Assembly (NCBI RefSeq): GCF_028583545.1
Contig: NZ_CP087106.1
Coordinates: forward strand, 5,811,001-5,875,000
From: Methylobacterium sp. NMS14P
Lineage (GTDB): Bacteria > Pseudomonadota > Alphaproteobacteria > Rhizobiales > Beijerinckiaceae
Direction: 5' to 3'
Length of the DNA: 64,000 bases
Positions 2-15,029 of this stretch are shown piece by piece (within the stretch, counting starts at the first letter, position 1; every line of letters starts with the position of its first letter). A program made the position numbers and the translations under genes. The notes under the pieces are model-generated. The model saw only the letters and a program-made list of their open reading frames with translations. It was not told the origin of the DNA and searched no databases.

Positions 2-658
2 GCCCCCGCCGGCCAGGGCACCGCCCTGGCGGTCGAGATGGCCCGGGCCGCCGAGGCCGCCGGCGCGGACGGGATCCTGCTGCTGCCGCCCTACCTGGTC
101 GGCTCCGAGCAGGCCGGTCTCGCCGCCCATATCGAGGCGGTCTGCCGCGCGACGTCCCTCGGGATCATCGTCTACAACCGCGCCAACGCCCAGCTCAACG
201 AGCAGACGCTGGCCGGCCTGTGCGAGCGCTGCCCAAACCTCGTCGGCTTCAAGGACGGCGTCGGCGACGTCGAGCTGATGACCCGGGTCTACGCCGCTCT
301 GGGCGACCGCCTGACCTATATCGGCGGCCTGCCCACCGCCGAGACCTTCGCGCTGCCGTACCTGGAGATGGGCGTCACCACCTACTCCTCGGCGATCTTC
401 AACTTCCTGCCCGAATGGGCGCTGTCCTTCTACGACAGCGTCCGCCGCCGGGACCGCGACGCGGTCTACCGGGAGCTGCGCGACTTCGTCCTCCCCTACA
501 TCGCGATCCGCAACCGCAAGCGCGGCTACGCGGTCTCGATCGTCAAGGCGGGCATGAGCGCCGTCGGCCGCCACGCCGGCCCGGTCCGGCCGCCGCTGAC
601 CGAGCTCGACGCGGCCGAGCGCGCCGAGCTGACGACGCTGATCGGCGACCGTCGCTGA
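2..658 (+). CDS. kdgD: 5-dehydro-4-deoxyglucarate dehydratase, 5' end missing
   Basis: This is the C-terminal two thirds of a DHDPS/NanA-family aldolase; the frame is open to the left edge, so the start lies outside the window. The family converts 5-dehydro-4-deoxyglucarate to 2,5-dioxopentanoate with loss of water and CO2, in the cytoplasm. The visible part has the family segment IIVYNRANA and then GFKDGVGD, whose Lys is the Schiff-base lysine. It is followed about 100 bp later by a glucarate-type MFS transporter and glucarate dehydratase, which supports KdgD over dihydrodipicolinate synthase. GudD makes its substrate, so the three genes form one catabolic unit. A 4-hydroxy-tetrahydrodipicolinate synthase paralogue is the main alternative. 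Confidence 0.85.
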
Positions 659-756
659 ACCCCCGCGACGCGCACAACGACGGATCCGCCGAGCCAACGG
701 CGGCCACGACCCGCTTCCTGGATCAACCGGGCGGCAGAGAGCCAGGGAGAACGTCC

Positions 757-2112
757 ATGAGTGCCAGTTCGACCGGCGCGCCGAGCACCCTGCTCGACGC
801 CGCCGACGCGGGTCGCCGCACCCGCGTCCGCCTGCTGATCGTGGCGATGCTGTTCGCCGCCACGACGATCAACTACGCCGACCGCGCGACCATCTCGATC
901 GCCGGGCCCGACATGGCCAAGGAACTCGGCCTCTCGCCGGTCCAGATGGGCTACGTCTTCTCGGCCTTCGCGTGGTCCTACGTCCTCGCCCAGATCCCAG
1001 GCGGCTGGCTCCTCGACCGCTACAGCGTCAAGTGGGTCTACGCCGCCGCCGTCGCCCTGTGGTCGGGCTTCACGCTGGTCCAGGGCGCCGTCGGCTTCTT
1101 CACCGGCCTGACCGCGGTGGTGCTGCTCTTCGCCCTGCGGCTCGCCGTCGGCCTCACCGAGGCGCCGGTCTTTCCCGCCAATGCCCGGATCGTCGCCGCG
1201 TGGTTCCCGACCCGGGAACGCGGCATGGCCTCGGCGTTCTTCAACTCGGCGCAGTACTTCGCCACGGTGCTGTTCACGCCGCTGATGGCGTGGATCGTCC
1301 ACAATTTCGGCTGGCACCACGTCTTCACCAGCATGGGCCTGCTCGGCATCGTCTTCGCGGTGGTGTGGCTGCGCGTCGTCGACAGCCCGAAGAACCACCC
1401 GTCGATGAACCAGGCGGAGCGGGACTACATCGAGGCCGGCGGCGCGCTGCTCGACATGGACGGGCAGAGCCGGACCAAGCAGGGCGATGCCGGCCGGACG
1501 CTGCGCCAGCTGCTCGCCAACCGGATGCTGCTCGGCATCTATGTCGGCCAGTACTGCATCACCGTGCTGACCTACTTCTTCCTGACGTGGTTCCCGGTCT
1601 ACCTCGTCAAGGAGCGCGGCCTGTCGATCCTGCAGGCCGGCTTCGCGGCGGCTCTGCCGGCGCTCTGCGGCTTCATCGGCGGCATCCTCGGGGGCGTGAT
1701 CTCCGACCTGCTCCTGCGCCGCGGCTTCTCGCTGACGGCGGCCCGCAAGATCCCGATCGTCGGCGGCATGCTGCTGTCGATGAGCATCATCGGCTGCAAC
1801 TACGTCCAGGCGGACGCGGTGGTGGTCGGGCTGATGGCGCTCGCCTTCTTCGGCAAGGGCATCGGCGCGCTCGGCTGGGCGGTCGTCGCCGACACCTCCC
1901 CGCGGGAGAGCGGCGGCCTCTCGGGCGGCCTGTTCAACACCTTCGGCAACACCGCCGGCATCACCACGCCGATCGCGATCGGCTACATCGTCCAGAGCAC
2001 GGGCTCGTTCAACGGCGCCCTGGTCTTCGTCGGCCTGAACGCCCTCGTCGCCTGCTTCTGCTACCTCGTGGTGGTCGGCGAGATCCGCCGCGTCGAGCTG
2101 AAGGCCCACTGA
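757..2112 (+). CDS. gudP: MFS transporter, glucarate/galactarate type (GudP-like)
   Basis: A 451-residue major facilitator with about 12 hydrophobic segments. The N-terminal region carries [15 protein letters not shown] and, after TM2, [12 protein letters not shown], the loop pattern of the anion:cation symporter (phthalate/glucarate permease) subfamily. It likely imports D-glucarate or galactarate by proton symport through the inner membrane. The ATG at 757 was chosen because the membrane domain begins shortly after it and GGGAGAAC lies just upstream; longer in-frame versions overlap kdgD. It sits between kdgD and gudD. Assignment to hexarates rests on the neighbours; other sugar acids are possible. 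Confidence 0.85.
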
Positions 2113-2120
2113 CCCGCCCG

Positions 2121-2145
2121 CCGGACCGGCCGCCGGCCGGTCCGG
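2121..2145 (+). terminator. GC-rich hairpin between transporter and gudD
   Basis: A perfect inverted repeat, CCGGACCGGCC, loop GCC, then GGCCGGTCCGG, starts 9 bp after the transporter stop codon. There is no T-run, so it is either a weak terminator or a 3'-end stabilising hairpin that could set lower expression of gudD. Confidence 0.4.
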
Positions 2146-2207
2146 CCCCGCATCGATCCCGCCTCGCGCCCGGCGCAGACCGGCCGGGGGCCCCCGAGGA
2201 GGACGCC

Positions 2208-3557
2208 ATGCTGAACGAGAGCCGCCACGCCGCCCGCAACACGCCGACCGTGACCGCCATGAAGGTCGTGCCGGTCGCCGGCCACGACAGCATGCTGCTC
2301 AACCTCTCGGGCGCGCACGGGCCGTACTTCACCCGCAACCTCGTGATCCTGACCGACTCCACCGGCGCCACCGGACTCGGCGAGGTCCCCGGCGGCGAGG
2401 GCATCCGCAAGACCCTGGAGGATGCCCGGGATCTCGTGGTCGGGCAGCCGCTCGGCGCCTGGAACGCGGTGCTCAACGCCATGCGGACGCGCTTCGCCGA
2501 CCGCGACGTCGGCGGGCGCGGCCTGCAGACCTTCGACCTGCGCATCACCATCCACGCGGTCACCGCCGTCGAGTCCGCCTTCCTCGACCTGCTCGGCCAG
2601 TACCTCGACGTGCCCGTCGCGGCGCTCCTGGGCGAGGGCCAGCAGCGCGACGCCGTCGAGATGCTGGGCTACCTGTTCTACGTCGGCGACCGCACCCGCA
2701 CGGATCTCGGCTACCGCGCGCCGACCGCCCGCGACGGCTGGTTCCGCCTGCGGGACGAGGAGGCGCTGACACCGGAGGCCGTGGCCCGGCTCGCCGAGGC
2801 CGCCTACGACCAGTACGGCTTCAACGACTTCAAGCTGAAGGGCGGCGTGCTGCGCGGCGAGGACGAGATCGCCGCCGTCACCGCGATCCATGAGCGCTTC
2901 CCCAAGGCGCGGGTCACGCTCGACCCGAACGGCGCGTGGTCCCTCGCGGAGGCGATCCGCCTCTGCAAGGGCCAGGGCGACGTCCTGGCCTACGCGGAGG
3001 ATCCCTGCGGCGCCGAGGGCGGGTTCTCGGGCCGCGAGATCATGGCCGAGTTCCGCCGCGCCACCGGCCTGCCCACCGCCACCAACATGATCGCCACCGA
3101 CTGGCGGCAGATGAACCACGCGATCCAGCTCGGTGCTGTCGACATCCCGCTGGCCGACCCGCATTTCTGGACGCTCGCCGGCTCGGTCCGGGTGGCCCAG
3201 CTGTGCCGTGACCACGGCCTGACCTGGGGCTCGCACTCGAACAACCACTTCGACGTGTCGCTCGCGATGTTCACCCACGTCGCCGCGGCGGCGCCCGGCA
3301 ACGTCACGGCGATCGACACGCACTGGATCTGGCAGGACGGCGAGCGCCTGACCAGGGAGCCGCTGGCGATCCGCGGCGGCCTCGTGCGGGTGCCGGAGCG
3401 GCCGGGCCTCGGCATCGAGCTCGACATGTCGGCGGTGGAGGAGGCCCACGCCCTCTACCGCGACCACGGCCTCGGCGCCCGCGACGACGCGGCCGCCATG
3501 CAGTTCCTGATCCCCGGCTGGACCTTCGACAACAAGAAGCCCTGCCTGGTCCGCTGA
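2208..3557 (+). CDS. gudD: Glucarate dehydratase
   Basis: A 449-residue enolase-superfamily (mandelate racemase subgroup) enzyme that dehydrates D-glucarate to 5-dehydro-4-deoxyglucarate. Visible signatures are the K-x-K base motif in FKLKGG near residue 208, the metal-ligand segment VTLDPNGAW near residue 240, and the catalytic His region GSHSNNHFD near residue 343. Its length matches the family. The ATG at 2208 has GAGGAGG seven bases upstream. The product is the substrate of the upstream KdgD, and the transporter lies between them, giving a compact import-to-2,5-dioxopentanoate operon. Confidence 0.95.
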
Positions 3558-3574: not shown

Positions 3575-4120
3575 TCAGACGCGCGAAGACAGCGGCGACC
3601 ATTCCCGGCGCAGGATGGCGTACTGCATCGTGTTCTCGAAGATCGGGTTGCCCCGATCGTCGTCCACGAAGGAGATGAACTCGCGGAACAGGCCCTCGGG
3701 GCGCATCGTCAGCGCCTCGCACAGGCGGCGCGAGGCGGCGTTGTCCTCCTCGACATAGGCGTAGAGCCGCCGCGCACGCCGCTCGGAGAACAGGTATCCG
3801 AACAGGGCGGTCGCGGCCTCGAGGGCGTAGCCCGCGCCGCCGTACGCGGCGTTGAAGTTCCAGCCGACCGAGAAGGTGTCGGGCGGTTCGGGCAGGCAGA
3901 ACAGGTCGCCGATCAGCCGGTCGGACGCGGCCAGGCACACGGCCACGTGCTCGTCGTCGCGGCCGCGCCGCACGGCCTCCGCCTCCGCGTCCGCCGGCGT
4001 GTCGAGGCGGCCGCTCTGGAAGCAGCGCGCCCGCGGGCGGTGCAGGTAGGCGAACAGGTCGGCGGCGTCGTCCGGCCTGAAACGCCGCAGGATCAGGCGG
4101 TCGGTCCGGATGTCGATCAT
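3575..4120 (-). CDS. GNAT N-acetyltransferase (RimJ/RimL type)
   Basis: A 181-residue GNAT protein starting MIDIRTDRLILRRF, the beta-1 signature of RimJ/RimL-like acetyltransferases. The middle has GWNFNAAYGGAGYALEA, which corresponds to the V-x-x-x-x-R/Q-G-x-G/A acetyl-CoA loop, followed by ARRLYAYVEEDNAASRRLCEAL. It would acetylate a small amine or a protein N-terminus; the substrate cannot be read from sequence. It starts 22 bp after the stop of the NAD-kinase-fold gene on the same strand, so it is probably the last gene of the nrtR operon. It converges on gudD with a 17-bp gap. Confidence 0.85.
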   Translation of the reverse strand: MIDIRTDRLILRRFRPDDAADLFAYLHRPRARCFQSGRLDTPADAEAEAVRRGRDDEHVAVCLAASDRLIGDLFCLPEPPDTFSVGWNFNAAYGGAGYALEAATALFGYLFSERRARRLYAYVEEDNAASRRLCEALTMRPEGLFREFISFVDDDRGNPIFENTMQYAILRREWSPLSSRV

Positions 4121-4142
4121 CGGGTTCCCGGTCGGGGCCGCG

Positions 4143-5036
4143 CTACGCGGCCACGAGGTTGAAGGTGCGGTCGGCCGGCGCGAGGCTGACCCGCCGCCCC
4201 CAGTCGAAGGCGACGAAATCCTGCTCGATCCCGTCCGAGAACACCACGCCGCCCTCGTTCATCCGCGACACCACCGTGAGCGGCGCGCCGGCGAACTTGC
4301 CGCCGCGGAGATCGGTGCCGGTGGCGACGCTCGGGAACGGCTCGCGCACCCAGTAGCCGAAGGCCGCCTCCTCGATGCCGACCTCCACGGTGAGGTGCGT
4401 CGCCTCGCTGATCGAGCGCGCCCAGCCGGTCAGGCCGGTGCCCGAGGCCACGATCAGCCCGCTCGACGAGTGGTCCTCCGCCCGCGCCCCGTCGTCGATC
4501 CGGTAGCGCGCCGACTGGTGGCTGCGGTGGCCGACGAAGATCTCGTTCAGGGCGAGCAGCCGCTCGCCGCCGTCGAAGGTCGCCTGCACCATGGTGCGCC
4601 GCTGCAGGGGGGCGGCGCCGGCCGCGCTGGCGGGCAGCAGGGCGCGGAGTGCCTCCACCCGGGCCCGGGCCAGCACGCCGTCGTAGAGGTCGGGCGCCGG
4701 GTTGACCCCGACCACCGGCTGCCCGTCGAGGTACTTGGCGACGTTGGCCACGAGCCCGTCCTGCCCCACGGCCACGACCACGTCCTCGGGGGCGAAGAGG
4801 AAGCGGTCGAGGTCGGGGCGCCGCACCAGGGCCTGCCGCCAGTCCAGGGGCACGGAGGCCCGGGCCTCGGCGAGCACGGCCTGGAACTGCGCGTGGCGCG
4901 CCTCGACCGCGGCGAGCGTCTGGCCCCTGCTCTCCAGGAAGAACCGGACTTGGCCGCGGGTCGCGTGCCGGGCGATGAGCAGCTCGTAATCCGTGTCGCG
5001 GATCACGAAGACCACGCGGGGGGTGAGGGCCGGCAT
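4143..5036 (-). CDS. Divergent NAD kinase-fold protein
   Basis: A 297-residue protein with the layout of ATP-NAD kinases but far from housekeeping NadK. Residues about 85-110 read VVVAVGQDGLVANVAKYL, in the place of the GGDGT phosphate/NAD-binding motif: one Gly is changed but the Asp is kept. It is followed by GVNPAPDLYDG, at the position of the family GIN segment. Later segments ALNEIFVGHR and SSGLIVASGTGLTGWARS match the NadK blocks NE and DGLIVSTPTGST. It may phosphorylate NAD or a related nucleotide, or bind it without turnover. It starts 11 bp after the SPFH gene stop, in an operon led by a Nudix NAD-metabolism-type regulator, which supports an NAD link. Confidence 0.75.
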   Translation of the reverse strand: MPALTPRVVFVIRDTDYELLIARHATRGQVRFFLESRGQTLAAVEARHAQFQAVLAEARASVPLDWRQALVRRPDLDRFLFAPEDVVVAVGQDGLVANVAKYLDGQPVVGVNPAPDLYDGVLARARVEALRALLPASAAGAAPLQRRTMVQATFDGGERLLALNEIFVGHRSHQSARYRIDDGARAEDHSSSGLIVASGTGLTGWARSISEATHLTVEVGIEEAAFGYWVREPFPSVATGTDLRGGKFAGAPLTVVSRMNEGGVVFSDGIEQDFVAFDWGRRVSLAPADRTFNLVAA

Positions 5037-5047
5037 GGCGGGCCTCC

Positions 5048-6034
5048 TCAGCGGGGCGCGAGCCGCGCGGGAAGCGCGCCCCGGACCTCGCCGAGGATTG
5101 CCGCCAGCAGGTCGGGCGTGACGTTGACGTGCTCGATCGTCTCCAGCTTGCCGGCGAGTTCCCGGGCCGCCAGCCCGAGCAGGACGGCGGGCGGCATGTC
5201 CCGGTAGATTGCGGCGCGGCGCTGCTCCGCGTCGGCCCGGGCCCCCTCGACGAGCCGGATCCGCTCGGCCTCCGCGGCCGCCTCCAGGCCGCGGGCCTCC
5301 GCGACGCCGGCGGCGCGGTCGCGGGCGTTCTCGGCTTCTTGCGCGATCAGCACGGTCTCGCGCCGGGCCAACTCGGTCTTGGTCGCGAGCTCGTTCTCCG
5401 CGATGGCGCGCTCCTTCTCAACCGCCAGGGCGCGCCGCGCGAAGGTCGCCTCGTCGGCCTTCTGCTGCAGGGCCTCGAAGGTCGGCGTCTGCAGGGCGCG
5501 CTCCAGCTCGCTGGTCGGCGCGAGGTTGGTGAGCCGCACCGAAACCGCCGCGACGCCGATCTCGGCCAGCGCCGGGGCGGCGAACAGGACCCGTTCCAGC
5601 ACGGCGCGCAGCGGCTCCGGACCGGCGTCGAGGAGGGCGCCGATCGGGCTCGCCCCGAGATACTGGAGCGCCGCCTGGCCGGCGATGCCGCCGAGGCGCG
5701 CCTCGATCCGCTCGATCGGCTCGCCCTGGAGGCGCCCGTTGCGGAGGTCGATCGAGAAATCGACCCGGCTCGCCAGCAGCTCCGGATCGACGACGTGCCA
5801 GCCGATCGTCCCCTGGACCACGACAGTCTGGAAGTCCCGGCTGCGGCCGCGGACGAACAGGGTCATCTCGCGGTCGTCGACCGGCACCTCGCTGATGCTG
5901 GCGGTCTCGGGCCGGAACCAGAAGACCAGACCCCGCCCGCTCTGCCGGACCCGGCCGTTGCGGAAGCGGATGATGTGGCTGCTCGCCTCGCTCCGGAGCT
6001 GGGCGATCACACCGATGTTGCGGACCGTTGCCAT
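5048..6034 (-). CDS. SPFH/band 7 domain protein
   Basis: A 328-residue protein. The first ~180 residues form a band-7 domain (IRFRNGRVRQSGRGLVFWF, VPVDDREM, VQGTIGWHVVDPELLASRV). This is followed by a long Glu/Ala/Arg-rich helical region (about 200-300) with repeated A-E-A-E-R patterns typical of SPFH coiled coils that drive oligomerisation at membranes. No clear transmembrane helix is seen, unlike stomatins or HflK. The ATG at 6034 was chosen because GAGGAG lies upstream and the domain begins at once; longer frames overlap nrtR. It is 10 bp downstream of nrtR. It probably forms a membrane-associated ring linked to nucleotide signalling, an inference from the operon. Confidence 0.85.
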   Translation of the reverse strand: MATVRNIGVIAQLRSEASSHIIRFRNGRVRQSGRGLVFWFRPETASISEVPVDDREMTLFVRGRSRDFQTVVVQGTIGWHVVDPELLASRVDFSIDLRNGRLQGEPIERIEARLGGIAGQAALQYLGASPIGALLDAGPEPLRAVLERVLFAAPALAEIGVAAVSVRLTNLAPTSELERALQTPTFEALQQKADEATFARRALAVEKERAIAENELATKTELARRETVLIAQEAENARDRAAGVAEARGLEAAAEAERIRLVEGARADAEQRRAAIYRDMPPAVLLGLAARELAGKLETIEHVNVTPDLLAAILGEVRGALPARLAPR

Positions 6035-6044
6035 GATGGTCTCC

Positions 6045-6776
6045 TCAGAACTGACCCGAGCTGTCGAAGCGGAAGAGTTCGGCGGGGCGGAACGCCGTCC
6101 CGGCCTCGCGGGCGCCGGTCGGCGCGATCCAGCCCCGGTCGCGCATGCGGCGGCGGAAGGCGGATTTGTTGAGGGGCGCGCCGCGGATCGCCGCGTGCAC
6201 GTCCTGGAGCTGCCGGAGGGTGAAGTGCTCCGGGAGTAGCGCGAAGCCGACATCCGTGTAGTCGAGCTTGCCGCGCAGCCGCTTCACGGCCAGCGCGAGG
6301 ATGTCGGAGTGGTCGAAGGCGAGGGCGAGGGGGGCGCCGTCCTCGGTCTCGGCCGAGACCGGGCCGCCGGCCTCGCCCGCCCAGGGCACGATCAGCGTCG
6401 CCGCCGTCGGCGCGGCGCTGCCCGCCAGGGCCTCGGCGAGGGCCGCCTCCGGCAGCAGCGCCAGGTAGGCGACCGAGACGATGCGCATCCGCGGATCCCG
6501 GTCCACGGCGCCGAAGGTGTAGAGCTGCTCGAGCCGCGCCCGCCCGATCCCGGCCTTCTCGCGCAGGACGCGCTCCGCGGCGGCGTCGAGGGTCTCGGCG
6601 ATGCCTACGAACCCGCCCGGCAGCGCCCACAGGCCGGCCTGCGGCAGCTGGCTTCGGCGCAGCAGGAGAGCGGCGAGCCGGCCCGCCCGGATCCCCACGA
6701 GGACGAGATCGACCGCCAGGGCGGGGCGCTCGTATTTCGCAGGATCGTAGCCTGCCAGGAACTCGGATTCGGTCAT
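6045..6776 (-). CDS. NrtR-type Nudix regulator with C-terminal winged helix
   Basis: A 243-residue two-domain protein. Residues about 20-150 are a Nudix fold (LWALPGGFVGIAETLDAAAERVLREKAGI): the Nudix box lacks the full catalytic R-E-x-x-E-E pattern (REKAGI), as is usual in ADP-ribose-sensing NrtR proteins. The C-terminal part, TDVGFALLPEHFTLRQLQ and later NKSAFRRRM, is the winged-helix region of that family. NrtR regulators repress NAD biosynthesis genes and respond to ADP-ribose. It is first in an operon with SPFH, NAD-kinase-fold and GNAT genes, so it probably autoregulates this operon. Which ligand it binds cannot be told from sequence. Confidence 0.85.
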   Translation of the reverse strand: MTESEFLAGYDPAKYERPALAVDLVLVGIRAGRLAALLLRRSQLPQAGLWALPGGFVGIAETLDAAAERVLREKAGIGRARLEQLYTFGAVDRDPRMRIVSVAYLALLPEAALAEALAGSAAPTAATLIVPWAGEAGGPVSAETEDGAPLALAFDHSDILALAVKRLRGKLDYTDVGFALLPEHFTLRQLQDVHAAIRGAPLNKSAFRRRMRDRGWIAPTGAREAGTAFRPAELFRFDSSGQF

Positions 6777-6788
6777 CGGACTTTTCTA

Positions 6789-6831
6789 CTCAAGTTGAGC
6801 ATAACTAAGACGCAGATTGCGCATATGTCAA
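6789..6831 (-). promoter_or_regulatory. Promoter and operator candidate for the nrtR operon
   Basis: On the minus strand a consensus -35 TTGACA (6826-6831) is followed after 18 bp by TAGTTA (6802-6807) as -10. Just downstream lies an 11-bp palindrome, CTCAACTTGAG (6789-6799), with perfect 5-bp arms, centred near the expected transcription start and 12 bp before the nrtR ATG. This is where a repressor would block initiation. It is an AT-rich patch in a GC-rich region. Confidence 0.55.
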
Positions 6832-7026: not shown

Positions 7027-9213
7027 ATGCCGTTCTTCGCTCCACGATCCGCGGTCGAGCCGCCCCGCAACGCCGCGCTGTCGCCGCTCTTCCTCGCGCT
7101 GCTGGCGCTCCTCATCATGCTCGCCTCGGCCCACGCGGCGCCAGGCCCGGAGCGGGGCGGCCTCAGGCTGCGCGGGCCGGCCGGCACCGCGCCGGTCGAG
7201 GCCGTCCAGCTCGCGACCGACATCAGCGTCGACGTCAGCGGCCCGACCGCCCGGGCCACCGTCACCCAGGCCTTCCGCAACGTCACGGCGGACTGGGTCG
7301 AGGGCACCTACGTGTACCCGCTTCCGGAGGACGCGGCCGTCGACGGGATGAAGCTCGTCGTCGGCGCCCGCGTGATCGTCGCCGACATCCGCGAGCGGGC
7401 GGCGGCCAAGCGCGCCTACGAGGCCGCGAAGGTGGCCGGGCAGTCGGCGGCGCTGACCGCGCAGGAGCGGCCCAACGTCTTCACCAACGCGGTCGCCAAT
7501 ATCGGCCCCGGCGAGACGGTGGTGGTCCAGATTACCTACCAGCAGACGATCCCCGTCTCTGGCGAGACGCGGACGCTGCGCCTGCCCCTGGTAGTGGCGC
7601 CCCGCTACAATCCCGCCCCCGCCCCGGTGGACGCGGTCTCCCTCGACGGCGTGGCCGGCGCGGCCCGCGACCCCGTCCCGGATCGCGCCCGGATCAGCCC
7701 GCCGGTGCTCGACCCGGCCCTGTCGTCGCCGACCAATCCGGTCGCCGTCACCGTGCGGCTGCAGGCGGGCTTCCCCGTCGGCGACGTCCGCAGCGCGACC
7801 CACGCGATCCGCGTGACCGAGACCGGCCCGGAGGCGCGGACCGTCACGCTCGCCGACGGCGTCGTCCCGGCCGACCGCGACCTCGAGCTGACCTGGGCGC
7901 CGGTCCCGAGCCGGGTGCCGGGCCTCGGCCTGTTCCGCGAGACCGTGGCGGGCCGGACCTACCTGCTGGCCACCGTGAACCCGCCGGCGATCGAGGCCGA
8001 CGCGGCCGCCCGGCCGGCGCGCGACGTCACCTTCGTCATCGACAATTCCGGCTCGATGTCGGGCGCCTCGATGCGGCAGGCCAAGGCCGGGCTGCTGGCC
8101 GGCCTCGGCCGCCTGACCCCGCGGGACCGCTTCAACGTCATCCGCTTCGACGACACCTGGGACGCGCTGCATCCGGAGCCGGTCCCGGCGACGCCGGCGG
8201 CCCTGGCGGAGGCCGAGGCCTTCGTCGCCGCCCTGGAGGCCCGCGGCGGCACCGAGATGCTGGCGCCCCTCAAGGCGGCCCTCGCCGACCCCCACCCGGA
8301 GGACGGGCGCGTCCGTCAGGTCGTGTTCCTCACCGACGGCGCCGTCGGCGACGAGGAGCGGATCTTCGCGGCGATCCACGCCGATCTCGGGCGCACGCGC
8401 CTGTTCATGGTCGGCATCGGCGCGGCGCCCAACGGCCACCTGATGCGCCACGCGGCCGAGATCGGCCGCGGCAGCTTCACCGAGATCCGCGACCTCGCGC
8501 AGGTCGGCGAGCGGACCCGCGCGCTCTACGAGAAGCTGGAATCCCCCGCCGTCACCGACCTGACCGCGACCTTCTCGGTCCCGGGCGTCGCGGTCACGCC
8601 GGGAGCGCTGCCCGACCTGTATCGCGGCGAGCCGCTGGTCTTCGCCGCGCTTCTGCCGGGGGCGGCAGAGGGCACCGTGACCGTCACCGGCCGGGTGGGC
8701 GGCCGGACCTGGACCCGGACGCTCCCCCTCGTCGAGGCGGGCCCCGGCGCCGGCATCTCCAAGGTCTGGGCGCGCTCCCGGATCGGCGAGACCGAGACGG
8801 CGCGCATCACGGGGCGCCTCGGCACGGACGCGGCCGACGCCGCCATTCTGGCGCTGGCCCTGGAGCACGGCCTGACGACGCGGCTGACCAGCCTCGTGGC
8901 CGTCGACGCCACGCCGCGCCGGGCGCCCGGCACGCCTCTCGTCGCCGCCGACCTGCCGCTGAACCTGCCGGCGGGCTGGGACTTCGCCAAGGTGTTCGGC
9001 ACGGGCCGGCCCGGCGCCGCGCCCGCCGACGACGGGGCGGCGCGGATCGTGCCGATCCGGGCCGAGGGCGCGGCGGTCGACCTGCCGCGGACCGGGGCCG
9101 GGATCCTGGCGCAGCTCGGCCTGGGCCTGCTCCTCGCCCTGCTGGGTCTCCTGGGCCTCCTGCTGGGCGCCGGCCCGACGGCCGGCGGCCGCCGGACCGG
9201 GGACGCGCGATGA
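7027..9213 (+). CDS. VIT/VWA-domain surface protein with LPRTG sorting signal (sortase substrate)
   Basis: A 728-residue exported protein. The N-terminus has a hydrophobic signal segment (LFLALLALLIMLASAHA) with cleavage likely after AHA. A VIT (vault inter-alpha-trypsin) domain follows (VTQAFRN, GTYVYPLPEDAAVDGM), then a VWA domain with MIDAS residues in FVIDNSGSMSG, GGTEML and FLTDGAVGD. The C-terminus has LPRTG (9082-9096), a leucine-rich hydrophobic helix and the Arg-containing tail GGRRTGDAR: a complete LPXTG-type sorting signal, rare in Gram-negatives. The stop overlaps the start of the sortase gene. The ATG at 7027 has AGGAGA upstream and begins directly before the signal peptide. It matches the known proteobacterial pairing of a class GN sortase with one VIT/VWA target. 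Confidence 0.9.
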   Translation: MPFFAPRSAVEPPRNAALSPLFLALLALLIMLASAHAAPGPERGGLRLRGPAGTAPVEAVQLATDISVDVSGPTARATVTQAFRNVTADWVEGTYVYPLPEDAAVDGMKLVVGARVIVADIRERAAAKRAYEAAKVAGQSAALTAQERPNVFTNAVANIGPGETVVVQITYQQTIPVSGETRTLRLPLVVAPRYNPAPAPVDAVSLDGVAGAARDPVPDRARISPPVLDPALSSPTNPVAVTVRLQAGFPVGDVRSATHAIRVTETGPEARTVTLADGVVPADRDLELTWAPVPSRVPGLGLFRETVAGRTYLLATVNPPAIEADAAARPARDVTFVIDNSGSMSGASMRQAKAGLLAGLGRLTPRDRFNVIRFDDTWDALHPEPVPATPAALAEAEAFVAALEARGGTEMLAPLKAALADPHPEDGRVRQVVFLTDGAVGDEERIFAAIHADLGRTRLFMVGIGAAPNGHLMRHAAEIGRGSFTEIRDLAQVGERTRALYEKLESPAVTDLTATFSVPGVAVTPGALPDLYRGEPLVFAALLPGAAEGTVTVTGRVGGRTWTRTLPLVEAGPGAGISKVWARSRIGETETARITGRLGTDAADAAILALALEHGLTTRLTSLVAVDATPRRAPGTPLVAADLPLNLPAGWDFAKVFGTGRPGAAPADDGAARIVPIRAEGAAVDLPRTGAGILAQLGLGLLLALLGLLGLLLGAGPTAGGRRTGDAR

Positions 9214-9800
9214 GCCGGCGCACGGTGACCGGACTGGGGAGGGCCCTCGCGGCCCTCCTCACCCTCGCGGGGCTCGGGCTCGCGGCGCAGGCCGCCTGGA
9301 TCCCCGCCAAGGCCGCCCTGGCCCAGCTGCTGCTGGAGCGCGCCTTCGCCCGCACGCTGGCCGAGGGCCGGCCCGCCCGGCCCTGGCCCTGGGCCGACAC
9401 CGAGCCGGTCGCCCGCCTCACCGTCGCGGGCCGCAGCTTCGTGGTGCTGCGGGGCGGGAGCGGCCAGGCCCTGGCCTTCGGCCCCGGCCATCTGGACGGC
9501 ACCCCGGAGGCCGGCGCGCCCGGAACCGCCGTCATCGCCGCCCACCGCGACACGCAGTTCGCGGTGCTGGGGCAGCTCGGGCCCGGCGATCCGGTCGCGG
9601 TGACCGGCCGCGACGGCCGGACCCTGCGCTTCCGCGTTACCGGCACGCGGGTCGCCCGCTGGGACGCCTCGGGCATCGACCCGCAGGCCCCCGGCCGGCA
9701 CCTCGACCTCGTCACCTGCTGGCCTCTCGAGGCGCTGCAGGCCGGCCCGCTCCGGCTGATCGTCGAGACCGAACTGGCCTCGGAGGCGGGGCGTTCCTGA
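9210..9800 (+). CDS. Class GN sortase
   Basis: A 196-residue membrane-anchored transpeptidase with an N-terminal hydrophobic helix (about residues 8-30). The catalytic set is visible: His in AAHRDTQF, Cys in DLVTCWPL and Arg in GPLRLIVE. It would cleave the LPRTG signal of the protein encoded just upstream between Thr and Gly and transfer it to an unknown nucleophile in the periplasm. Its ATG overlaps the upstream stop (ATGA), so the pair is translationally coupled. One sortase with one dedicated substrate is the usual arrangement of this class in proteobacteria. Confidence 0.92.
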   Translation: MSRRTVTGLGRALAALLTLAGLGLAAQAAWIPAKAALAQLLLERAFARTLAEGRPARPWPWADTEPVARLTVAGRSFVVLRGGSGQALAFGPGHLDGTPEAGAPGTAVIAAHRDTQFAVLGQLGPGDPVAVTGRDGRTLRFRVTGTRVARWDASGIDPQAPGRHLDLVTCWPLEALQAGPLRLIVETELASEAGRS

Positions 9801-13839: not shown

Positions 13840-15029
13840 TCAGCGGCGCGGTCGTTCGAAGTTGTCGTTGGCCCGCGCGTAGGCGATGGACAAGTCCGGG
13901 GGACCGTCGGAGAAGAACGGCGATGCCGAAGCCTTCCCGACCCGTTCAAAATCCTTCCAGGACGTTATCTTGCCGAGCTCGGCCCGTAGCCTGGACTTAT
14001 CCAGATGGACATAGCGGTCCGTCGAATTCCTGTTCGCGTGACCGAGGAGTTCCTGAACCGCGTAGATGTTGAACCCGCTCGCCACGAGGGCGAGACAGGC
14101 GGCGGTATGCCTGTGGTCGTGAAGCCGGTAGTCGTCCACGCCGGCCCTGCGGAAGGTCTGCGCGGCACGCTTCGCCATGGCCGTATACGTGAAGGGCTTC
14201 CACGCGCCGGTGCGGCGGCACGTATAGGTGAACACGTGCGTCGGGTGCCCTCGGACCGCCTCGAGCAGCCTGCGCGTGTCCGGCGTCAGCGGCACGGCGT
14301 ACGTTCCGCCCCCCTTTCTGGCTGCGGTGATCAGGCCCAGATCGAAGTCGATGTCGGTCCAACGCAGATCGAGGATGCACCGTATTCTGATGCCGGTCAG
14401 CCAAGTGAACTCGTGGAGGAAGGCGTCCCGGTCCGTGCATGCCCGGATGATGCTCTCCATTTCGGCCGCGCGAAGATAGCGGCTGCGTGCATTCCTGGGT
14501 GTGCGACCTATGGTGGTCCACTTGATGAACGGCAGATTCGTCGCGCCGAACTCCGTCAGCGCGAGATTGTACATCCCCGCATTGGCTCAATGACCATGGT
14601 TTTGATGCTGGAGTCCGATAATCCTCTCTCGCGGTGTCTGATCGCGATGTTTCTCAATTGCTGAATGTCGATAGCTGAAATCTGCCTATCGGGTCCGAGT
14701 TCATCAACGAGCCTTCGGGCCCATATCTTCATATATTTCAAATTCGCTTCGTTCGTGTAGGTCGTGTCCTGCCTCGCGCTCCAGGCGGAGAGTAGGGTCT
14801 CGAGCGTCGGCGTCGTGTGCGAGGCCCTTGTCGGAGACAACCGTCCGGCTTTGAAGTACGAGGCATCGATCCCGCGTCTCGCCAGCTCCTGAGAGACCGC
14901 AAGACGAGCTTCTCGGCGATCCCGCTTTCCGGTCGCTATGTAGACGCGCTTCTCCTTCTTGCCCTTGTCGAAATGATACGTTCCGTCGGGCCGTTTGGTG
15001 AGGCCGTCGTTGGCACGCTTGCGTGGCAT
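13840..15029 (-). pseudogene. Second tyrosine recombinase, frameshifted
   Basis: The N-terminal part starts at ATG 15029 (MPRKRANDGLTKRPDGTYHF) and includes a core-binding region (YTNEANLKYMKIWARRLVDE). It runs into a frameshift at about 14572, within a CGGGG run, where KTMVIEPM should join MYNLALTEFG. The downstream frame (14574 to 13840) holds the catalytic domain: Arg in TGIRIRCILDLRW, HDHRHTAAC, ELLGHANRNSTDRYVHL with the nucleophilic Tyr. A single G loss explains it; a sequencing error in the G-run cannot be excluded. It looks like a phage/plasmid integrase with an AP2-like arm domain. Together with the AlpA-like gene upstream on the same strand it forms an integration/excision module. 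Confidence 0.8.

Follow-up and report, generated by a model that had tools for sequence, protein, structure and literature searches.

An SPFH gene paired with a NADK2-like gene in Methylobacterium: a candidate mobile NAD(P)-homeostasis module

Closest described relatives and existing names

Regulators of the NrtR, AraR and NadQ kind, the human mitochondrial kinase NADK2 and SPFH proteins of the HflK/stomatin type are the closest described systems for three adjoining minus-strand genes of Methylobacterium sp. NMS14P, which encode a NUDIX/NrtR-like regulator, an SPFH/Band 7 protein and a NAD-kinase-like (NADK-like) protein and lie in the 64,000-nucleotide stretch at positions 5,811,001 to 5,875,000 of contig NZ_CP087106.1 (hereafter the window). 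With NrtR, AraR and NadQ (PDB 3gz5, 5bs6 and 7q91) the window regulator shares a homologous winged helix and a palindromic operator common with a NAD gene, and with NrtR and AraR also a NUDIX-like sensor domain; however, the genes that follow it encode SPFH and NADK-like proteins and no known enzyme of NAD biosynthesis, and it scores 160 bits against the cut-off of 400 of the NCBIfam NtrR equivalog. Human NADK2 (PDB 7r4j/7n29) aligns with the NADK-like protein in the N-terminal extension, the NE motif and the SSGL plus GTG..W region, whereas it has a longer chain and carries GGDGT where the window protein has GQDGL; an SPFH partner of NADK2 is not claimed. HflK/stomatin-type proteins likewise have an SPFH domain followed by a helix, and HflK is the closest solved relative by profile (a weak match, E=0.0017), but the window protein has no predicted N-terminal transmembrane (TM) helix. 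SPFH proteins are widespread and their role is often unclear; here one of them is the near-constant partner of a protein with a testable nucleotide pocket, under an operator linked to NAD synthesis.

The association of NrtR, Band 7 and PpnK-like genes appears to be already known by name. The UniRef name of the Methylorubrum populi homologue (P0105) begins 'NrtR-regulated protei...', and one R. etli record names the NADK-like protein 'ATP-NAD kinase PpnK-type protein'. The label of 'NrtR-regulated' Band 7 or PpnK-type protein is presumably a SEED-style name for the same gene association, and this naming is reportedly linked to the work of Rodionov et al. in 2008. In the open-licence literature, no paper was found that joins SPFH with NAD kinase, with or without NUDIX and operon as further terms; no link of NrtR to Band 7 occurred among the matches listed, the NUDIX plus SPFH matches listed were unrelated by title, the SEED-style phrases gave none, and SPFH was absent among the matches listed in a broader query. 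As far as this literature shows, the kinship to NADK2, the NadQ-type site common with nadA, the retention of that site where the NUDIX gene has been lost, and a virus-classed gene cluster are new.

The conserved pair and its two proteins

The conserved unit is the pair of SPFH and NADK-like genes and is thus smaller than the four-gene unit of the first-pass annotation, which had included a GNAT acetyltransferase gene. Searching GTDB genomes with the NADK-like protein gave 285 relatives, and the counts below cover the best 80 loci, so that distant loci are under-sampled. An SPFH gene of the same subfamily adjoins the NADK-like gene in 79 of the 80 loci, and in L057 the contig starts inside the SPFH gene. 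The NUDIX gene was seen in 70 of the loci, on the same strand in 57 and divergent in 13, and was not found in 10, of which L046 and L057 lie at contig edges. A GNAT gene accompanies the pair in two loci only (L001 and L007) and was ruled out as a conserved member of the module. By their record labels, the loci belong to Alpha- and Gammaproteobacteria, Myxococcota/Deltaproteobacteria, Planctomycetota and Actinomycetota; the association therefore extends well beyond close relatives, across several phyla and, as described below, onto plasmids. The pair is a mobile unit, for which the NUDIX regulator is usual but not universal.

Within the family, 4 of 80 genomes gave NADK-like matches; exactly these 4 also gave SPFH matches, with the two genes adjacent every time. 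The pair is carried by two of the three genomes at genus level, and at class level at least 1 of 240 genomes (our own) matched, with no more than 9 candidates scored per genome. This co-occurrence, together with the adjacency in the survey, indicates an association beyond chance. The NADK-like profile match begins a median of 15 nt after the SPFH stop (range -41 to 326, 79 loci). The pairwise distances of the two proteins correlate at 0.92, a value reached in none of 2000 permutations, and those of the NUDIX protein correlate with the pair at 0.70 and 0.75, although shared ancestry also raises all of these correlations. That the genes are ordinary neighbours without joint function describes the GNAT gene well, whereas for the SPFH and NADK-like genes it is contradicted by the adjacency, the common presence in the same family genomes and the short gaps or overlaps, and its probability is next to negligible. 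In the window itself, the coordinates agree with the gaps of 10, 11 and 22 bp reported between the four minus-strand genes; the single transcript that they were taken to show is an inference from this spacing.

The NADK-like protein matches NAD kinase families weakly (best E=8.1e-6; Pfam 14.5 against a cut-off of 25.5 bits; NCBIfam at most 25.4 against 211-371). In a single-sequence search of the PDB, human mitochondrial NADK2 (2.1e-8) was the sole match better than E=1. A profile of 33 sequences matched NADK2 at 4e-19 over two stretches (4-121 and 153-215), the N-terminal extension included, whereas the nine ordinary prokaryotic NAD kinases that were matched reached 9e-7 or weaker and aligned only from about 60 or 80 onward. 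By this comparison the protein resembles human mitochondrial NADK2 more closely than ordinary bacterial NAD kinases: the NADK2-type features, namely the N-terminal extension and the SSGL/GTG..W region, are present in the profile alignment, with which the single sequence agrees, weakly per stretch. All 33 sequences keep the Asp and Gly of the GxDG motif, the Asn-Glu of the NE/D motif, the [SA]SG region and the GxGxxGW turn. At the GGDG position, 32 have GQDGL and one has GPDGL; the VGQDG noted in the first-pass annotation was thus read correctly, and the motif Asp is invariant. A published account (PMC8553519) describes GGDG as common to every NAD kinase, and because this motif is not found here, the protein is filed by its sequence as NADK2-related and not as a NAD kinase.

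The changed loop leaves room for a pseudokinase sensor, in which the NADK-like protein would no longer phosphorylate but bind NAD(P) or ADP-ribose and relay the state of the pool to an SPFH oligomer. The near-fixed replacement of GGDG beside fully kept NE and GTGxxGW motifs, the near-constant SPFH partner and a housekeeping NAD kinase encoded elsewhere in the same genome (L082; 376 bits against a cut-off of 211) fit this sensor, but selection for catalysis would be expected to keep the GxDG Asp and the NE pair invariant, as they are, and we regard the sensor as possible, if doubtful. A kinase with another acceptor, such as ADP-ribose or a nicotinamide dinucleotide in damaged or alternative form, would instead make the protein a repair or clean-up enzyme. 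The retained pocket motifs, the scores far under the cut-offs of named NAD kinase models and the response to ADP-ribose of which NrtR regulators are capable (PMC6800001) are in line with such an enzyme, but the closest solved relative, NADK2, is described as a NAD(H) kinase, and this alternative seems quite unlikely.

The SPFH protein has a Band_7 match at E=2.7e-7 (31.3 bits against a Pfam cut-off of 23.6). No N-terminal TM helix is predicted: among the 19-residue Kyte-Doolittle windows that start within residues 1-60, the strongest reaches 0.44, and across 33 SPFH sequences the same maxima range from 0.22 to 1.34, none of them strongly hydrophobic. Its strongest segment anywhere (1.67) starts at residue 149, inside the SPFH domain. 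In the structure model (pLDDT 85.2, pTM 0.53), the chain opens directly with beta strands and comprises the SPFH domain to residue 173, a helix at 175-278 and two short helices. Hydropathy and model thus agree with the earlier remark that an obvious TM helix is missing, and the protein is predicted to be soluble, which leaves the 'membrane-proximal' system proposed at the same time unsupported for this SPFH subfamily. By analogy with other SPFH proteins, it could form a ring or another oligomer.

Regulator and operator sites

The assignment of the regulator to the NrtR family holds, with NrtR_WHD (E=1e-19) and NUDIX (E=6.5e-11) both above the Pfam cut-off and with a regulator profile whose best PDB matches were AraR 5bs6 and the NrtR-type 3gz5; NadQ 7q91 was matched as well. 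Its Nudix box is degenerate and has lost Glu residues (RVLREK versus REUXEE). A full Nudix box was present in 5 of 30 regulator sequences, all actinobacterial and divergently placed; that of the window is not among them.

Two operator candidates precede the operon. Site 2, nearer to the regulator gene, agrees at 13 of 14 positions (counted by eye) with the published NadQ motif ttATRCTCannntGAGYATaa (PMC5343134). The genome of 6.88 Mb, whose closest homologues are in Methylobacterium, also encodes NadQ itself (L089, match to 7q91 at E=6.9e-93). Palindromes of the site-2 type occur three times in this genome (control 0): at the module promoter, upstream of nadA and within a reading frame. This third one (G000:C1:2993007-2993022; L083, L124) is a perfect NadQ-type palindrome in a frame of unassigned function, with transposase-like frames nearby as judged by eye.

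Exact sites were sought in nine genomes, that is, seven of Methylobacteriaceae, one of Mesorhizobium and one of Sphingomonas. Of 15 sites in the Methylobacteriaceae, 7 are at nadA, which has one in each of the seven genomes, 5 lie at the module operon and 3 elsewhere; a reversed control pattern gave 2. Five of these seven genomes had been picked for a site at the operon and two for its lack, so only the nadA result is independent. Among 79 loci scored, 13-14 of the 14 NadQ motif positions were reached in 10, all Methylobacterium, whereas shuffled sequences reached 11 at most.

Site 1 lies directly downstream of the predicted -35 element. Of 45 promoters with a NUDIX gene (that of the window and those of 44 loci among L001-L049), 43 contain a TTGACWTA block, which was seen in none of three that have lost the NUDIX gene. 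In these three related loci (L002, L004 and L015), the NUDIX gene is absent upstream, its last 25 codons being retained in L002; site 2 upstream of SPFH is kept with 14, 13 and 14 of 14 positions, L002 and L015 no longer have the site-1 block, and L004 lacks TTGAC. Because loci without NUDIX keep site 2 but lose TTGACWTA, the comparison favours assigning site 1 to the local NUDIX protein and site 2 to NadQ. In L046, where the contig ends at the place where a NUDIX gene might lie, TTGACWTA is present.

Other arrangements also occur. In L049 and other alphaproteobacterial promoters, the two sites form, as judged by eye, one long inverted repeat of mirrored, non-symmetric sites, possibly the ancestral layout. 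In L064, L067, L068, L075, L079 and L080, a palindrome like ATCGTCAnnnTGACGAT lies between divergent NUDIX and SPFH genes and spans 17 bp, as does the Methylobacterium site. As a regulon marker, the actinobacterial palindrome ATCGTCAnnnTGACGAT was rejected: with up to 2 mismatches it gave 67-117 sites per strand versus 3-6 in the control in four genomes, too loose for naming targets.

The proposed module, its carriage and its surroundings

We propose that the pair is the core of a mobile accessory NAD(P)-homeostasis module, made up of an SPFH scaffold and a NADK2-type nucleotide-binding protein and derepressed with NAD synthesis, a reading that stands about an even chance of being correct. The NrtR-family repressor, with its NUDIX domain and winged helix, would bind site 1, and in this Methylobacterium clade NadQ probably binds site 2. 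A low NAD pool, or a high level of a NAD-derived signal such as ADP-ribose, may then lift the repression of the operon along with that of nadABC, yielding a soluble SPFH scaffold and the NADK2-type protein. An SPFH oligomer would most likely hold or regulate the latter, which could bind NAD(H) or a dinucleotide derived from NAD and would probably phosphorylate it with the altered GQDGL loop at the GGDG position. Should the NADK2-type protein prove active, it would offer a second, inducible and horizontally moving route for adjusting NADP or a NAD-derived signal, and also a simple bacterial model for NADK2. A bolder version, speculative and unlikely, is that a soluble SPFH ring or cage scaffolds a NADK2-type enzyme with a rebuilt GGDG loop as an SPFH-controlled site at which NADP or a phosphorylated NAD/ADP-ribose signal is made; this would be a mobile bacterial machine which at least one large virus may also use for managing the NAD pool.

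A plasmid collection contained 65 matching records, 42 of them from Rhizobium. SPFH adjoins the NADK-like gene on all six annotated plasmids inspected (Rhizobium, Moraxella, Providencia, Treponema, Streptomyces and Methylomonas); a seventh matching record, from Cupriavidus, carries no annotation. A divergent NUDIX gene adjoins the pair on four of the six; in Treponema it is some 4 kb away, and the Streptomyces annotation does not list one. On the Moraxella osloensis plasmid pNP7-1 (L112, 1-9841), the NUDIX/SPFH/NADK-like trio stands beside tet(H). Plasmids of Psychrobacter and Pasteurella match the C-terminal part only.

The virus-classed IMG/VR contig L109 (257.5 kb) holds, within 7 kb, genes for a NUDIX protein, an isochorismatase-family protein, ClpP, DUF3228, SPFH, NADK-like and NAPRTase/NAMPT-like proteins, with a PRPP synthase about 9 kb from the cluster. 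If these assignments hold, the cluster connects the pair with NAD salvage by a line of evidence that does not depend on the operator of Methylobacterium. The link to NAD metabolism drawn in the first-pass annotation is thus strengthened from three sides: the operator common with nadA, NadQ in the same genome and the L109 trio among NAD-salvage-type genes. No terminase (PF03237) was matched on L109, and no structural phage gene was seen among ten flanking proteins examined (of 32 frames), so that the case for a virus depends on the label in IMG/VR. The SPFH profile against viral contigs gave 71 pattern matches, of which 0 were confirmed.

Patchy occurrence in family and class genomes, plasmid carriage and one virus-classed contig would also fit a mobile stress or defence trait, that is, an anti-phage defence or counter-defence module acting via NAD. 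However, PADLOC-DB gave only a NUDIX match at E=0.014, no match was found in 50,697 phage records, and the nadA-type operator points to metabolism. Nor was a constant further neighbour recognised across the loci, most neighbours, including those in single groups, being without annotation: six non-core frame clusters are common to at least four groups, of which three overlie core genes as shadow frames, while the other three include frames outside the core that were judged by eye to be ABC ATPases, short-chain dehydrogenases, and chance or shadow frames. The defence reading finds little support and seems very unlikely.

Apart from the under-sampling of distant loci, several observations weigh against the homeostasis module. 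The similarity to NADK2 is weak per stretch in the single sequence (i-Evalues 0.077 and 0.0045), and with the GGDG of NAD kinases changed, kinase activity may be lost. The NadQ-type site is restricted to 10 of 18 Methylobacteriaceae loci and reached in 0 of the other 61 scored; the Mesorhizobium and Sphingomonas genomes contained no exact site. The symmetry of site 1 is not significant in most single NUDIX-bearing loci (shuffle P 0.00-0.80), and in the four genomes scanned the actinobacterial palindrome was not tied to other genes. On L109, NrtR_WHD (19.8 versus 27 bits) and NAPRTase (20.3 versus 20.8 bits) both fall under the Pfam cut-offs.

Table 1. Positions of the genes and promoter elements in the window
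Feature	Position	Strand	Description
NUDIX/NrtR-like regulator gene	6045..6776	-	NUDIX domain and NrtR-type winged helix; predicted transcriptional repressor
SPFH/Band 7 gene	5048..6034	-	ATG at 6034; SPFH domain, then long helix, TM helix not predicted; proposed oligomeric scaffold
NADK2-type NAD-kinase-like gene	4143..5036	-	GQDGL replaces GGDGT/N; NE and GTGxxGW motifs kept
GNAT acetyltransferase gene	3575..4120	-	Acetyltransf_3 E=3.5e-20; adjacent, outside the conserved module
Operator site 2	6786..6802	-	ATGCTCAACTTGAGTAG; fits published NadQ motif; like site upstream of nadA
Operator site 1	6808..6824	-	ATGCGCAATCTGCGTCT; directly downstream of -35; proposed box for the neighbouring NUDIX regulator
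Predicted -35 element TTGACA	6826..6831	-	Absent from sigma-70 consensus scan output

The NADK-like proteins of M. radiotolerans, M. fujisawaense and another species are 98-99% identical to that of the window. Beside the module, the plus strand at 7027-9797 encodes two sortase-related proteins, with a class GN sortase (TIGR03784) coming directly after a marine proteobacterial sortase target protein (TIGR03788, 722 bits). On its other side, at 38-3557 of the plus strand, lie genes of sugar-acid catabolism, namely a 5-dehydro-4-deoxyglucarate dehydratase cut by the window start, an MFS sugar-acid transporter and a glucarate dehydratase. A tyrosine recombinase-like frame, with its best match to an XerA-type model below the cut-off, is located at 13843-14574 of the minus strand, about 7 kb from the module.

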